From Pseudeuparius sepicola (taxonomy: Eukaryota > Arthropoda > Insecta > Coleoptera > Anthribidae): a stretch of DNA of 64,000 bases. Below, piece after piece: positions 2,807 to 55,819 of this stretch; position 1 is the stretch's first letter; every line of letters begins with the position of its first letter. The DNA lies in the NCBI GenBank assembly GCA_963920635.1, contig OY987298.1, forward strand, positions 110,722,035 through 110,786,034, given 5' to 3'. A model generated the notes under the pieces. That model saw only the letters and a program-made list of their open reading frames with translations. It was not told the origin of the DNA and did no database searches. Position numbers and translations under genes: made by a program.

Positions 2807-3239
2807 ATGGAGGGGAAAAAAAGGAAGGGTGATAAACCTAAAGGTATGGACTACTGGAAAAAGTGGTGTAGTCAAGGTCAAGGGGTTTCTAATAAAGAAA
2901 CAAATTTGGATTTAGCTATCAAAGCTTCAGCTACCTTGCATGCTGATAAGAAGACTGCCTACCCTGAAATCTAGTTTGGAATGCCTAGATATGTGCGATA
3001 AAAACCTTTATCCTAATATTTACACATTACTACAAATCTTGGCTACCATTCCTGTATCCACTGCTACCCCAGAAAGGTCTTTCTCGAGCCTAAGGAGACT
3101 GAAAAACTATTTACGAAACACTACAAGTGAAAACAGACTTAATGGTTTGGCTCTAATGAACATTCACTATGGAACAGAAATTCATGCAGATGAAGTAGTG
3201 GATATATTTAAAAGAAAAAGCCGAAGATTTCTTCTTTAA
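2807..3239 (+). pseudogene. hAT transposase remnant (N-terminal stub fused to C-terminal dimerisation domain)
   Basis: The first frame (ATG 2807, stop near 2974) starts MEGKKRKGDKP, a basic N-terminus. A second frame (about 2940-3239) carries the hAT dimerisation signature: LATIPVSTATPERSFSSLRR, then LKNYLRNTT and NRLNGLALMNIH. The BED zinc finger and the catalytic RNase H-like core are missing. The two frames overlap out of phase, so there is a frameshift at about 2945-2970 besides the internal deletion. It is related to the transposase-like proteins annotated as '52 kDa repressor of the inhibitor of the protein kinase'. It cannot encode an active transposase. Confidence 0.85.
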
Positions 3240-32236: not shown

Positions 32237-33112
32237 CAGCGTGTCCCCAGATGGGGTACCGCACTCTTGTAAAGTTTCTTATATTTGATTTTTCGAGAAA
32301 AATTCATTCTTGATAAAAAGTTTTGCTTGTTCTTAAAATAAGATTGGCATGAAAAAAGTTAACATTACTTATACTGGGTGACCAGAAAATTGAAAAAACG
32401 TTAATTAACATAAGAGTAAACTGCCTCTATATGTAGAGATAATGAAAAAAGTTATAAAGAAAATTTGTTCAGCGTGTTAAGTTACTTAGGTGTACAAAAT
32501 TTCAAGGTGTAAGGCCTACTTTGATTTTTTGTTTTTTTTTTCTTGTTTTTCTTCGATTAAATGTTTTTCTGTAAATAGTATGACAAAACTGTATGAACAA
32601 AAGTTACTCAGAGTATTAAACTATGTAGGATGAAAAAATTTTGACAATCCCGGCCTACTTTGATTTTCTTCCAATATTTTCCAAAATACAAAGTAGGCCT
32701 AGAATTATTAAATTTTGTCATCAGGCGCCGTTTTCCATTCTGGGTAACTTTTGTTAATACAGTTTTGTGATACTATTTACAGAAAACCATTTAATCAAAG
32801 AAAAACAAGAAAAATATCAAAAAGTCAAAGTAGGCCTAACTCTTTGAAATTTTGTACACGTAAGAAACTTAGCAGGCTAAACAAATTTTCATTATAACTT
32901 TTTTTCACTATCTCTACAAATAGAGGCAGTTTACTCTTATGTTAATTAATGTTTTTTCAATTTTCTGTTCACCCAGTATAAGTAATGTTAACTTTTTCCA
33001 TGCCAATCTTATTTTAAGAACAAGCAAAACTTTTTATCAAAAATGACTTTTCTCGAAAAATCAAATATAAGAAACTTTACAAGAGTGCGGTACCCCATCT
33101 GGGGACACACTG
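32237..33112. mobile_element. TA-flanked palindromic element, nearly perfect arms
   Basis: TA|CAGCGTGTCCCCAGATGGGG at the left is mirrored at the right end, which finishes at 33112 before TA. The arms pair over about 400 bp each around a centre near 32680. The terminal 60 bp are almost identical, suggesting a young or recently homogenised copy. No transposase seen. Confidence 0.88.
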
Positions 33113-43768: not shown

Positions 43769-44018
43769 AATAAAAAAAATAGTGGGGTCGTTTTTAAATT
43801 TAATAAATAAACATTTAAAAAAATAACTTTGGTTGACCATCATTACCATCGGTAATTGTGGCGTCAGCCTTTGCCGGTCAAGACCAGTGGCTTTGTCCCG
43901 CACCTTCAGGTGTGCTATCGTTATAATACACCATGATCAATTAATTGCTTCGGTAATTCATTAATTCCTTATACATATAGTAAATCCATCGTCTAGGCAC
44001 GTTTGTCTATACCACTTC

Positions 44019-44086
44019 ATAGTCGGGTGAGCCATACTGATGAGGGATTACCGTCCCGAAACAGTACTGTATATGGTGGACATATC
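44019..44086 (+). ncRNA. Type I hammerhead ribozyme, copy 1
   Basis: A self-cleaving RNA motif with all conserved core positions. Stem I strand CCATA is at 44032-44036, core CTGATGA at 44037-44043, and stem II GGGA/TCCC (44044-44047 and 44054-44057) closes loop TTACCG. GAAA follows at 44058-44061, then stem III ACAG/CTGT with a two-base loop and A at 44071. Stem I strand TATGG (44072-44076) pairs with CCATA. Predicted cleavage is after the GTA triplet, between 44071 and 44072. An outer stem I helix can form from GTC (44022-44024) and GAC (44079-44081) across an internal loop. Confidence 0.93.
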
Positions 44087-44316
44087 GCTTTTAGTTACAT
44101 CGAGTTTTCGGTTGTCTAACCGACGCCGTGGAGACGGTAGATGGCGGGTCTCGGTAATTGTGGCGTCAGCCTTTGCCGATCAAGACCAGTGGCTTTGTCC
44201 CGTACCTTCGGGTGTGCTATCGTTATAATACTCAATGATCAATTAATTGCTTCGGTAATTCATTGATTCCTTATATAGTAAATCCATCGTCTAGGCACAT
44301 TTGTCTATACCACTTC

Positions 44317-44384
44317 ATAGTCGGGTGAGCCATACTGATGAGGGATAACCGTCCCGAAACAGTACTGTATATGGTGGACATATC
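44317..44384 (+). ncRNA. Type I hammerhead ribozyme, copy 2 (B type)
   Basis: Same architecture: CCATA 44330-44334, CTGATGA 44335-44341, stem II closing loop TAACCG (one change from copy 1), GAAA 44356-44359, and TATGG after the cleavage site between 44369 and 44370. All core residues are kept and the loop change leaves stem II intact. Confidence 0.93.
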
Positions 44385-44618
44385 GCTTTTAGTTACATCG
44401 AGTTTTTGGTTGTCTAACCGACGCCGTGGAGACGGTAGATGGCGGGTCACGGTAATTGTGGCGTCAGCCTTTGCCGATCAAGACCAGTGGCTTTGTCCCG
44501 CACCTTCAGGTGTGCTATCGTTATAATACACCATGATCAATTAATTGCTTCGGTAATTCATTAATTCCTTATACATATAGTAAATCCATCGTCTAGGCAC
44601 GTTTGTCTATACCACTTC

Positions 44619-44686
44619 ATAGTCGGGTGAGCCATACTGATGAGGGATTACCGTCCAGAAACAGTACTGTATATGGTGGACTATCG
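44619..44686 (+). ncRNA. Type I hammerhead ribozyme, copy 3 (stem II base changed)
   Basis: Core CTGATGA 44637-44643, with cleavage expected between 44671 and 44672. The stem II strand reads TCCA instead of TCCC, so the pair next to the core becomes G-A. That may weaken but not necessarily abolish activity. The outer stem I strand is GACTAT, a perfect complement of ATAGTC upstream. Confidence 0.88.
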
Positions 44687-44917
44687 CTCTTTTAGTTACA
44701 TCGAGTTTTCGGTTGTCTAACCGACGCCGTGGAGACGGTAGATGGCGGGTCTCGGTAATTGTGGCGTCAGCCTTTGCCGATCAAGACCAGTGGCTTTGTC
44801 CCGTACCTTCGGGTGTGCTATCGTTATAATACTCAATGATCAATTAATTGCTTCGGTAATTCATTGATTCCTTATATAGTAAATCCATCGTCTAGGCACA
44901 TTTGTCTATACCACTTC

Positions 44918-44985
44918 ATAGTCGGGTGAGCCATACTGATGAGGGATAACCGTCCCGAAACAGTACTGTATATGGTGGACATATC
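44918..44985 (+). ncRNA. Type I hammerhead ribozyme, copy 4 (B type)
   Basis: CCATA 44931-44935, CTGATGA 44936-44942, stem II with loop TAACCG, GAAA 44957-44960, and cleavage expected between 44970 and 44971 followed by TATGG. Near-identical to copy 2, 601 bp upstream. Confidence 0.93.
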
Positions 44986-45219
44986 GCTTTTAGTTACATC
45001 GAGTTTTCGGTTGTCTAACCGACGCCGTGGAGACGGTAGATGGCGGGTCACGGTAATTGTGGCGTCAGCCTTTGCCGATCAAGACCAGTGGCTTTGTCCC
45101 GCACCTTCAGGTGTGCTATCGTTATAATACACCATGATCAATTAATTGCTTCGGTAATTCATTAATTCCTTATACATATAGTAAATCCATCGTCTAGGCA
45201 CGTTTGTCTATACCACTTC

Positions 45220-45287
45220 ATAGTCGGGTGAGCCATACTGATGAGGGATTACCGTCCCGAAACAGTACTGTATATGGTGGACTATCG
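45220..45287 (+). ncRNA. Type I hammerhead ribozyme, copy 5 (A type)
   Basis: CCATA 45233-45237, CTGATGA 45238-45244, intact stem II with loop TTACCG, GAAA 45259-45262, and cleavage expected between 45272 and 45273. Outer stem I ATAGTC/GACTAT is a perfect 6-bp helix, making this the best-paired copy. Confidence 0.94.
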
Positions 45288-45518
45288 CTCTTTTAGTTAC
45301 ATCGAGTTTTCGGTTGTCTAACCGACGCCGTGGAGACGGTAGATGGCGGGTCTCGGTAATTGTGGCGTCAGCCTTTGCCGATCAAGACCAGTGGCTTTGT
45401 CCCGTACCTTCGGGTGTGCTATCGTTATAATACTCAATGATCAATTAATTGCTTCGGTAATTCATTGATTCCTTATATAGTAAATCCATCGTCTAGGCAC
45501 ATTTGTCTATACCACTTC

Positions 45519-45586
45519 ATAGTCGGGTGAGCCATACTGATGAGGGATTACCGTCCCGAAACAGTACTGTATATGGTCGACTATCG
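45519..45586 (+). ncRNA. Type I hammerhead ribozyme, copy 6 (chimeric unit)
   Basis: CTGATGA 45537-45543, loop TTACCG, and cleavage expected between 45571 and 45572. The sequence before the core is B-type (CACATTTGTC) but the core and 3' side are A-type, with TGGTCGACTAT downstream. It is the last unit, and similarity to the satellite stops about 40 bp later. Confidence 0.92.
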
Positions 45587-45728
45587 CTCTTTTAATTACA
45601 TCATTTATCAGGTGATCCCTTTAAAATGTGCCTCTTATCGTCCTCCACCATCGTACCAAAAACCAAGTTGATATCTTAAAAATGCTATTAGGAGCTATGC
45701 TCCGTCCACAAACTAATGGGACACTCTG

Positions 45729-46049: not shown

Positions 46050-46334
46050 CAGGGTGAGTTTTTTTCGATGCCCATTTGATCAGGTCTCTGTCGCTCCGTT
46101 ATTTATGATTATACAGAAAAACTGTAGAGACAAAAATTGTAGATAATTTTGGGCTTAATAAGATAATCTTATACAATATTTTATGTTGCTTGTGATTTTT
46201 GAGATATGACATAAACTTGTGTTTTTTTAAATGTAAATCATAGTTGGCTGTGGCCTTATCAAATCGGCCATTTTTTGAGCTTTCCAAAGATATAATACTC
46301 GGCATAGTTATTATAATAAATAAAAGAGCTGCGG

Positions 46335-46862
46335 CTAATTTTCTGATTTTTTTAAAATTTCACATAGTCAGCCATAGATTTTTTTCATAATTTTGTTCTA
46401 TTTTATAATTAGACATATTTCAAACTTTCTAATTTTAGCTGGTAACAAAATGTAACAAAATAAAACAAAAATTAAAAAACTCAAATTCAAATTATTTTTA
46501 TTTTAAAAGGTCACCTTTTGAAATAAAAACAGGTGTTCAAACAATCCACCATTATTATATGTGCAAATATTGCATTTTTTAAAACTGAATTTGTCGCCTT
46601 TCTTAGAGAGTGCCTGTCAATACTGGCAATAACTGCTTCTAAAACAGGTGCTCTTAATAAAACAATTGTCTCATACGTTATTTTGTACTGTTCCCCACAA
46701 AAAGAAATCCAAAACAGACAAATCGGGGGATCGGGGCTGCCAGGAAATAAAAATAAAATATTTGAAAGTTTGAAGTATGTCTTATTATAAAATAGAACGT
46801 AATTATGAAAATATTCTATGGCTGACTAAGCGAAAATTAAAAAAAAAATCAGAAAATTAGCC
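46335..46862. mobile_element. Inner palindrome within the 46-49.8 kb composite
   Basis: GGCTAATTTTCTGATTTTTT and CATAGTCAGCCATAG at the left pair with CTATGGCTGACTAAG and AATCAGAAAATTAGCC at the right. A short frame within (46533-46790) shows no domain. Whether it is independent or the inner part of the surrounding palindrome is unclear. Confidence 0.65.
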
Positions 46863-53048: not shown

Positions 53049-55819
53049 GGGTAAGTCCGGCGGTGTTGGCCATAGGAGGAGAGATGGCCATATCTAGTAG
53101 TTCCTCTACCAATTAAGAGATGACGCCGCCTCGCGTCGTGAACATCAGTTTATATTGTGCGAGTGTATTGCAGCAGTCGCCGTCTTGATAATATCGGTTT
53201 TTTAAAAGATATTCAGGAAAATATATTTTCAAGGTAGGTTGAGTAGTGTTAGTGGTCCTAAATGGTGGCTGATACTTTATGTTCTACCTAAATTTCATGT
53301 AACTCTGAGCTGTTTGCATGATACACAAACATTTTCGCATATTCTAACCTCAAAATAACCCTGGTATAAATACGTTGTAAATAGTAAATTGACGCAAGTG
53401 TATTGTGTATACATTGGGGAGACATGACCACCATAACATTGGGGGGAGAAGGCCATGGCCAACTCTCCCCACTATTATGGAAGCTATGGCCATCTGACCC
53501 CAACATTTAATTTATTTGCAGATGCCTAGATACTATAAAAGGAAACAGACGGTTCAACGGGGTGCGTGGTCGCAAGATTGCCTAAGAGCTGCAATGGAGG
53601 CCGTGAGAAATGGATCTTCGGTCCGAGACGCTGCAGCTGTACATAACATCCCAAGAAAAACTTTGGAAAGGCGTATCAAAACGAATAATGATGTTAAAGG
53701 AAAGATGGGCTTCGGCGGTATATTTAACAAGGAACAAGAACGTAGGCTTGTCCGTCACATTAAAGAAATGCAAGGCCGTGGATTTCCTTTAACTGTTACC
53801 GATTTGCGTTCAATAATACTTTGCTGAGCAGATTGGTATTAAACATTCATTTAACAAACAAGAAGAAAAAGCTGGCTATGATTGGGTACACTTATTTCTT
53901 CGTAGAAATAATGACCTCAGCTTGAGGAAGGCTGAAGGAATTTCACTAAATCGTGTTCACGCAATGAATCGAAATGAAGTTAAAGAGTATTTTGACTTAC
54001 TATCTAACTGTCTGGAAGAAAACAACTTATTCGACAAACCTGGGCACATTTTTAATATGGACGAAACCGGCCTGCAGCTGAATAACAGACCTGGAATAGT
54101 TTTGGCCCAGAAAGGTGCAAGAAATGTTACTAATATCACGTCAACTGAGAGAGGAGAAACGATTACTGTCATAGCATGCTGCAACGCGGAGGGGAGTTTT
54201 TTACCCCCAGCGTGTGTGATGAAAGGCAAACTAAAGAAAAACGAGTATTCCGACAATATGCCGCCTGGATCGACGCTTTATATGTCAGAAAAATCCGCAT
54301 ATGTCAATAGCGCAATATTTTTAGATTGGCTAACTGGACACTTTCTTCCAAGAAAGCCCCACGGAACAGTTGTGTTGATTTTAGATGGGCATGCCTCTCA
54401 TTCCAGTTCCGTTGAAATGCTCGAAACTTGTAGAGATAACGGTGTTGTCTTACTCTGTCTTCCGAGTCACACAACATATTATTTACAACCTCTGGATAGA
54501 GCAGTTTTTAAATCCCTGAAGAGCAATTTTTATGATGCTTGCAGATTATGGATGAGAGCTCATCCCGGTCGGCGCATAACACGTTATCAGTTCGGAGACC
54601 TGCTTAGTTCAAGTTGGCCAAAAGCTGCAAATCCCGATAATGCAACAGCTGGGTTTAGAGCATCTGGAATTTACCCCTTCAACCCTAACACGATACCAGA
54701 TTATGCTTACTCGGCAATAGATCTGGCGAGGCAGCATCGTTTTGATGCAGTGGAGGACCCACATGATTCAGACCAGATACAAGAAGAAATTGCACCAGAA
54801 CGACCAACTTCCACCTTACCTACTTCACCATTACAAAACGTTCACAATTTGGCTGAACCAAAACCATCAAAGCAAATCGTTCATAATTTGGCTATACCTA
54901 GCAGTTCAAAACAAACGCCGGTAGAACTTGAGCAACCAAGTACGTCAAGAAAGGCATTAAAATATATTGCCCCACCGGATACACCGAAAAAAGAAGTGAA
55001 GGATAAAGAGTCTCCATTTACCAAAACTATTTCTAAGGTTTTTCCACCACCAGAACTCCTAGAGCCTGTCCGTAAGCGAGCAAAAAAAGTAGCCACTATC
55101 TTAACGTCTCCTGAAATAATTCAAGGTATCAAATCGAGAAATATAAAAAAAGGGAAAGATGCCTCTTAAAAAGTTACCTCCTGTAAAAAAGACTGGAAAT
55201 AAGAGAAAGAAGACTGCTGATATTCCTAGTTCTAGTAGCGATAGTGAAGTGGAGGATGTACCTGTGGTTAATAGTGACTCCGATAACTGCACGGAAGACT
55301 TGAATCAAAATGAGTGCGTTGGTTGCGGCGAGGAATATGAGAAAACTCTACAAAGAAGGACGATTGGATCTGTTGCGTGCGTTGCAAATCATGGTTACAC
55401 GAATCATGCACCACATTTTTAGATATTTGCATGAGATGCGGAAAGATTTGTCTAAGACAAAAACGGTGAAATCTGTAATAATTAATATTATTATTTTCCC
55501 AGAATATTAATTTTTTTAAGAGTTATTTTTCATTTTTGTACCTATTGTTTTGAAAATAAATGTTTTTCAACACAGGCCAAGTCTCCCCTTGTGCTGTGGC
55601 CATCTCTCCTGTACCGTTGAGAAGAGATGGCCAATTGCACTAGTTTTGTTTTTTATTGAATTCAATTGAACCTTTCAACTACAAAAGAGTCAATTGCTGC
55701 AAAGAATATGCAGTAATGTTTACCGAACACACATACTCACATACTGGCTATTATTTTTAACTTTAACCTTTGTTAGCGTAAAAAATATGTTGGGGTGGCC
55801 ATCACTACCCGACTTACCC
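53049..55819 (+). mobile_element. Nearly full-length pogo/Tigger-like DNA transposon
   Basis: The ends are TA|GGGTAAGTCCGGCGGTGTT at 53049 and, from the other side, GGGTAAGTCGGGTAGTGAT ending at 55819 before TA. The TA duplication and a DDE_1 transposase place it in the pogo group of the Tc1/mariner superfamily. Both subterminal regions carry repeated GGCCAT and TCTCCCC motifs (53068-53100, 53438-53490, 55570-55635), probable binding sites. Only a few indels separate the transposase from an open frame, so the copy is not very old. Confidence 0.9.
53522..55469 (+). pseudogene. Pogo/Tigger-like transposase with frameshifts
   Basis: ATG 53522 begins MPRYYKRKQTVQRGAWSQ, followed by a helix-turn-helix of the Psq/CENP-B type (SVRDAAAVHNIPRKTLERRI). 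A one-base shift near 53815-53822 interrupts the frame; the second part runs to 55169. It holds the DDE_1 core: NMDETG (first Asp, about 54058), LILDGHASHS (second Asp, about 54381) and YLQPLDRAVFK (likely third acidic site, about 54490). After a basic linker, a shift near the A run at 55143-55150 and one near 55335 lead into a C-terminal cysteine-rich stretch, CVGCGEEYE then DDWICCVRCKSWLHESC and CMRCGKICL, a PHD-like zinc finger seen in insect Tigger-like proteins. Cut-and-paste transposase; this copy is inactive as written. Confidence 0.88.

Follow-up and report, generated by a model that had tools for sequence, protein, structure and literature searches.

A tandem array of hammerhead ribozymes stands in a 64-kb stretch of the genome of the beetle Pseudeuparius sepicola (the window, by which we mean that whole stretch). 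It raises the question of whether the array is satellite DNA in which the ribozymes are incidental, or one copy of an element that uses them to move and, if so, what moves it.

Ribozymes and units of the window array

We scanned the window with a hammerhead descriptor (CTGANGA, stem II with at most one mismatch, GAA, stem III, NUH, stem I). The results showed exactly six sites, all on the plus strand (Table 1), and no match in 60 first-order Markov shuffles of the window. The original prediction of six type I hammerheads in tandem units of about 300 bp was thus confirmed, and its six cleavage positions were those of our scan. It had also stated that all three stems are paired, with one mismatch in stem II of copy 3; this holds for stem I and for stem II, which reads TCCA in copy 3 and is intact in the other five copies, but not for stem III as proposed (ACAG/CTGT), a pairing that would leave a 2-nt loop and close no hairpin. 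A workable stem III is formed either by ACA/UGU with a GUAC tetraloop or by a 10-bp stem joining two ribozymes, the latter being possible because ACAGUACUGU is a perfect palindrome. The distal part of stem I, absent from the prediction, is ATAGTC/GACTAT in copies 3, 5 and 6 and only GTC/GAC in copies 1, 2 and 4; the stem I internal loop (GGGUGAG/UC) and the stem II hexaloop, candidate partners for the loop 1-loop 2 tertiary contacts of animal non-LTR retrozymes, are also present. The suggested comparison with the Rfam hammerhead model (Rfam 15) gave no match at the gathering score in the window, and lax thresholds likewise gave the ribozyme no name; for one copy searched alone, the best ribozyme match was RF00008, at 14.3 bits against a gathering score of 48.5.

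The fold of the ribozyme was modelled for single and paired copies. A single ribozyme of insertion L036 had a minimum free energy (MFE) of −24.2 kcal/mol, compared with −13.4 kcal/mol for its hammerhead fold, and a non-hammerhead MFE structure was likewise preferred in all six window copies. For two ribozymes, however, the double hammerhead was itself the MFE structure (−54.4 versus −48.4 kcal/mol), in a model that disregards tertiary contacts and concentration. The circular MFE structure of the L036 unit was without a hammerhead, and single-strand stability relative to shuffles was uninformative (z −0.52 for one ribozyme and −1.54 for one window unit). Self-cleavage is plausible, and these models suggest that it would act mainly between two ribozymes, such that tandem transcripts would be cut while single circles would stay closed, a point left open in the main text of PMC7229834. 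A short palindromic stem III and dimer action are likewise described there for amphibian hammerheads.

The array was delimited by Tandem Repeats Finder, with a period of 298, 5.8 copies and 94% matches. GC content was below 50% and slightly above 45% (45.3% in the window unit, 46.3% in the L036 unit), no stop-to-stop frame of at least 100 aa was present within the array, and no LTR-like terminal repeats were seen on the element. Two unit types alternate along the array, strictly at seven unit positions and, at an eighth, everywhere except in the last unit. This pattern suggests a two-unit (dimeric) template; it could alternatively have arisen by duplication of a dimer after insertion. The candidate target site duplication (TSD) of the window copy is weak at 7 bp, the usual length in the family being 12 bp. 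The best reading of the window array is one 5'-truncated, one-armed copy of a small mobile element.

Table 1. Positions of the retrozyme features in the window
Feature	Position	Strand	Remark
Retrozyme array, one-armed, alternating unit types ABABAB	43849..45602	+	5.8-5.9 units of 298-302 bp
Candidate TSD, left copy, CATCATT	43838..43844	+	7 bp, weak
B-site motif TCCATCG (main subfamily: TCTATCG)	43985..43991	+	first partial unit
Hammerhead 1	44018..44085	+	predicted cleavage after 44071
A-site motif TACATCG (main subfamily: TCTATCG)	44096..44102	+	first cleavage-to-cleavage unit
Hammerhead 2	44316..44383	+	predicted cleavage after 44369
Hammerhead 3	44618..44685	+	predicted cleavage after 44671; stem II basal mismatch
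Hammerhead 4	44917..44984	+	predicted cleavage after 44970
Hammerhead 5	45219..45286	+	predicted cleavage after 45272
Hammerhead 6	45518..45585	+	predicted cleavage after 45571
A-type 3' end of the window insertion	45586..45602	+	about 22-30 nt past last cleavage site
Candidate TSD, right copy, CATCATT	45599..45605	+	7 bp, weak

Dispersed insertions with two fixed ends

The 769-Mb assembly, which carries TTAGG telomere repeats at four of the five contig ends examined, was searched with the array and with a single unit, and the best 40 of 681 and the best 40 of 684 candidates were retained, respectively. The 40 clusters of the first search and 20 new places of the second, minus L022, which repeats L021, gave 59 insertions, including the window copy (L048); they are the best-scoring part of the family and a non-random sample. 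L021 (C12:942000-946100) and L022 (C12:707500-711600) are near-identical two-armed insertions that share their flanks and lie on the same 1.05-Mb contig; they probably reflect a duplicated stretch or an assembly duplicate.

The results revealed copies dispersed over many contigs, with TSDs and fixed 3' ends. The word satellite, used in the original prediction, is therefore misleading, although its tandem hammerhead units of about 300 bp stand. The length of arrays and arms varied from less than one unit to about 15. TSDs of at least 10 bp were found in 19 of 39 insertions of the first sample, compared with 0.47% of 1,482 mismatched flank pairs. Across both samples, 30 of 58 insertions (L081 has no flank) had TSDs of 10-14 bp, mostly 11-14 bp; these long TSDs flanked 24 of the 32 two-armed insertions and 6 of the 26 with one arm. 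AT content was 84% in the 29 TSDs whose orientation was given by an A end (defined below) and 65% in the outermost 100 bp of the mapped loci. We joined the flanks of all 35 insertions that had a TSD of at least 8 bp; an alignment to other sequence in the analysed set passed through the joined junction at seven (L010, L019, L032, L039, L082, L083 and L091), and empty sites, with the target present once and the insert absent, could be read at five of them (L010, L019, L032, L083 and L091).

Some targets are themselves repeats that recur in the window. Just 3' of the array lies a dispersed repeat (46130-46750), copies of which host L010, L019 and L032 and are perhaps a preferred target. The repeat that L083 targets elsewhere has two inverted copies in the window (32245-32561 and 32790-33104).

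The ends of the insertions were mapped by wraparound alignment to the real L036 unit, with position 1 as the first base past the cleavage site. Outer ends clustered at A, about 28 nt past cleavage (mode 29, a value that counts bases also present in the target), and at B, about 212 nt past cleavage (207-218, a few at 183-191 being counted as B). Two arms were present in 33 of the 59 insertions, and all 33 were head-to-head, a minus arm followed by a plus arm. One A and one B end were found in 30 of the 33, and A/A or B/B pairs in none; L021, L034 and L081 each had one end outside these classes, that of L034 mapping to position 21 against another reference. The 26 one-armed insertions ended at A (17), at B (6) or elsewhere (3), and ends drawn independently at these rates would give only about 39% mixed pairs. 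Inner junctions were scattered across the unit, with microhomology of at least 6 nt in 7 of 33 (chance 0.2% each) and unaligned bases between the arms in 10 of 33. No consistent poly-A was seen among the ends inspected. A small third cluster of 3' ends was located at unit positions 183-191, about 25 nt short of B, in L016, L025, L026 and L046; the true end of L016 may be B, because its TSD lies further out. L035 (C3:58068500-58074100) has a four-unit period, inverted-repeat flanks and neither A nor B ends.

The L036 unit has two copies of the motif TCTATCG, one at A (26) and one at B (214). A 7-mer shared between two such places arose in 0.6% of shuffles, a figure to be read with the motif having been chosen post hoc and the unit holding six other repeated 7-mers. 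In the window subfamily, CATCG replaces TATCG in both copies of the motif, and both were changed together in L009, L037 and L048 (the window copy). Strict covariation of the two motifs was rejected, as only one was changed in L012, L023, L083 and L085.

Variants borne by the template

Units within young insertions were nearly identical, and we compared variants between the two arms of each insertion. With each arm taken in turn as the reference and mixed states excluded, a variant fixed in one arm recurred as fixed in the other in 61 comparisons and was missing from it in 3 (L019 and L030 disagree), whereas arms swapped between loci gave 95 concordant and 1,249 discordant comparisons (7% concordant). 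Relative to the family majority, 14 young loci carried 33 variants in all units, 7 in some and 74 in one (summed by hand), L028 alone supplying 35 of the 74. L012, L035 and L048 pass the youth filter of the arm comparison and were left out of these 14 as not homogeneous at the single-unit level; with them, and at the thresholds of the arm comparison, the counts were 45, 159 and 58, respectively. By mean divergence, only 8 of 22 two-armed loci had arms more similar to one another than to the closest locus elsewhere, a low figure because many young copies are near-identical and some arms are rearranged; it is the fixed variants that carry the case for a shared template. Their pattern is as if, at each insertion, one RNA circle had been lapped repeatedly from both strands of the target. 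The broader statement that all arrays are homogeneous was rejected: L009, L012, L017, L018, L035, the window array and others are not.

To separate variants that passed through the template from those that arose later, we classed them as present in all units or in one unit. In 34 insertions (L014, L016, L033, L035 and L037 being left out as rearranged), the core and inner stems (37 positions) contained 1 all-unit and 36 single-unit variants, compared with 81 and 193, respectively, outside the ribozyme (230 positions). Template-borne variants thus avoided the core and inner stems (Fisher P = 1.1e-4 by variant counts). Counted as distinct sites, all-unit variants were found at 1 of 37 positions in the core and inner stems and at 43 of 230 outside (P = 0.015), which is the safer value because shared descent leaves variant counts partly dependent. 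The ribozyme loops and distal stem I held 5 all-unit and 22 single-unit variants. The core pattern was counted 201 times, with 231 units covering that stretch. The refuting condition named in the original prediction was a lack of core conservation in other genomic copies; the outcome accordingly favours the ribozyme, and such insertions show a way to measure constraint on a ribozyme with genome sequence only.

A possible Penelope-like mover and competing explanations

Penelope-like elements, proposed as helpers of animal retrozymes (PMC7229834; Cervera & de la Pena 2020), are present in this genome. At least 132 GIY-YIG matches exceeded the cut-off among 150 scored of 1,365 candidates, not each of them necessarily Penelope-like. 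One family has a tandem 3,136-bp unit with an 816-aa frame containing RVT_1 and GIY-YIG, and its insertions terminate at two positions separated by about 32 bp. Three of the four head-to-head loci with both ends covered (L052, L056/57 and L059) had one end of each kind, and their TSDs measured 12-13 bp; L050 has a 6-bp TSD and an arm that stops at neither site, and the one-armed L051 has no TSD. In a second family, with two ends about 30 bp apart, the pair L061/L062 has one of each end, both sides of L063/L064 bear the long end, and the ends of L065/L066 are ambiguous. Published Penelope-like insertions contain inverted repeats, one of which may carry a tail (PMC3846280), and a purified Anolis Penelope protein cuts and extends both strands from two internal starts, treating the strands alike (PMC11167929).

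The retrozyme ends follow the same plan, with two fixed starts, head-to-head arms and one start per arm, and by this analogy the retrozyme is probably mobilised by Penelope machinery. It shares with Penelope-like elements, as described in PMC11167929 and PMC3846280, two reverse transcription starts, internal initiation, a tail on one of two inverted repeats, AT-rich targets and a hammerhead upstream of the start; the TSDs described there are 8-10 bp in A. vaga, compared with the 12-13 bp of the Penelope family here. Unlike them, it encodes no protein (neither reverse transcriptase nor GIY-YIG), its two starts are separated on the circle by 116 or 182 nt rather than about 30, and its ribozyme differs from the described Penelope-like hammerhead in its longer stem I and its 3-bp stem III. 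Because the array is non-coding, it is not itself a Penelope-like element. Blastn found similarity of at most 19 nt between the retrozyme unit and the Penelope loci L049-L060, and no likeness was seen by eye at the ends of the two families; we therefore leave the helper family unnamed. A relaxed descriptor (stem III of 2 bp, stem I of 3 bp) found no hammerhead in L049-L060, and minimal forms were noticed only on visual inspection, CTGAAGA...GAAACGTC in one family and CTGATGA...GAAA in the other.

We consider it likely that the array belongs to a non-autonomous animal non-LTR retrozyme, whose circle would be copied at A and B by the Penelope-like machinery of its own genome. In the order of steps that we infer, tandem copies would be transcribed on the plus strand, and self-cleavage by the hammerheads would release units of about 298 nt, which would be closed into circles. 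A Penelope-like reverse transcriptase/GIY-YIG endonuclease, the putative partner, would cut AT-rich DNA with a 10-14 bp stagger, and each 3' end of the cut would prime reverse transcription on one circle, one at A and the other at B; the stagger is visible as TSDs and the two starts as ends. Several laps per copy would produce the observed homogeneous tandem arrays, if the template is a circle. The two cDNAs would then meet and be joined at scattered points, sometimes via microhomology, into head-to-head arms, and copying of one strand only would leave a 5'-truncated one-armed array, the window copy included.

A more detailed version is put forward tentatively, at somewhat less than an even chance: two primers would act on one circle at its two UCUAUCG copies, and the ribozyme would act mainly between units. 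The two 3' ends left by a staggered Penelope cut would prime on different UCUAUCG copies, which would oblige one arm to begin at A and its partner at B; each polymerase would lap the circle, and the cDNAs would be end-joined. The palindromic stem III would make the ribozyme work mainly between units, cutting tandem transcripts and sparing the finished single circle, which, if true, would explain how circles survive. In the main text of PMC7229834, both the enzyme that moves animal retrozymes and the circle as template are proposals only; both are now directly testable, because the insertions carry a two-start signature and variants shared between arms. The insertions point to one small RNA circle written repeatedly into both ends of a DNA break.

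Satellite DNA spread and homogenised by unequal crossing-over or gene conversion, with the ribozyme incidental, would fit the tandem arrays of up to about 15 units, the four-unit period of L035 and, if it stems from dimer duplication after insertion, the ABABAB pattern of the window. For the family it is highly improbable, as copies are spread over many contigs and show TSDs, fixed ends and empty sites, homogeneity spans inverted arms, and intermediate variants are few in the 14 young loci (33 fixed, 7 intermediate, 74 single); a satellite-type process could explain at most how the window array is patterned internally. Twin priming gives inverted 5' parts and TSDs, and an element moved by a LINE in this way would likewise show both. 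LINEs are also named among the possible helpers in PMC7229834. However, the inverted arm has a fixed outer end, at A or B, rather than one scattered along the RNA, the two fixed ends match the described Penelope tail signature (PMC11167929, PMC3846280) as well as a Penelope family of this genome, and the ends inspected lack a consistent poly-A, which makes a LINE quite unlikely.

That the template was a linear multimer transcript, or linear monomers with template jumps, rather than a circle is unlikely but keeps some weight, given that the Anolis Penelope protein uses uncut RNA in vitro with no need for ribozyme cleavage (PMC11167929) and that the window and L012 arrays are not homogeneous at the single-unit level. 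A mutation in one unit of a linear source should give a one-unit variant, whereas variants tend to fill both arms and, when borne by the template, spare the ribozyme; a cut linear monomer would moreover be copied from A or B for no more than about 28 or 212 nt, respectively, whereas arrays hold many units. A ribozyme that is a relic and no longer cleaves in its host would agree with the MFE disfavouring the monomer hammerhead and with the broken basal stem II pair of window copy 3, but it is very unlikely in view of the constraint on template-borne variants, the 201 core patterns against 231 covering units and the co-folding of two ribozymes as a double hammerhead.

The preferred reading, a retrozyme copied from a circle, places the array in a published kind of element, animal non-LTR retrozymes, whose circles have been shown in coral, mussel and axolotl (PMC7229834). 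Descriptions of this kind also include linear and circular monomer RNAs in tissues and the lack of an LTR, a primer binding site and a polypurine tract. The likeness to the descriptions in that paper comprises a type I hammerhead core with three stems, tandem units (170-400 bp there, 298-302 bp here), low GC (there below 50% in the text and below 45% in a figure legend), no coding capacity, TSDs (above 4 bp there, 10-14 bp in 30 of 58 insertions here) and Penelope-like elements in the same genome. It differs from those descriptions in that 33 of 59 mapped insertions have their arms head-to-head between two fixed ends, with template variants common to both arms; the words "inverted" and "orientation" have 0 occurrences in the main text of PMC7229834. 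As far as we have seen, the element represents a new family of animal non-LTR retrozyme, placed by published descriptions rather than by sequence comparison. Neither a head-to-head retrozyme architecture with one A and one B end nor shared-variant evidence for one retrozyme template was found in the main texts of the literature searched. By description, the newt and axolotl satellites and those of Dolichopoda cave crickets are similar tandem type I hammerhead repeats. Plant LTR retrozymes also are hammerhead elements that spread via circles, as the present element would, but they are described with a type III ribozyme, LTRs and a 4-bp TSD (PMC7229834), whereas the element here has a type I ribozyme and no LTR.

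Other mobile elements were also present in the window. The interval 2916-3239 encodes the C-terminal dimerisation domain of a hAT transposase, and a transposase with HTH_psq and DDE_1 domains, which we take to be pogo-like, occupies two overlapping frames at 53498-55169.
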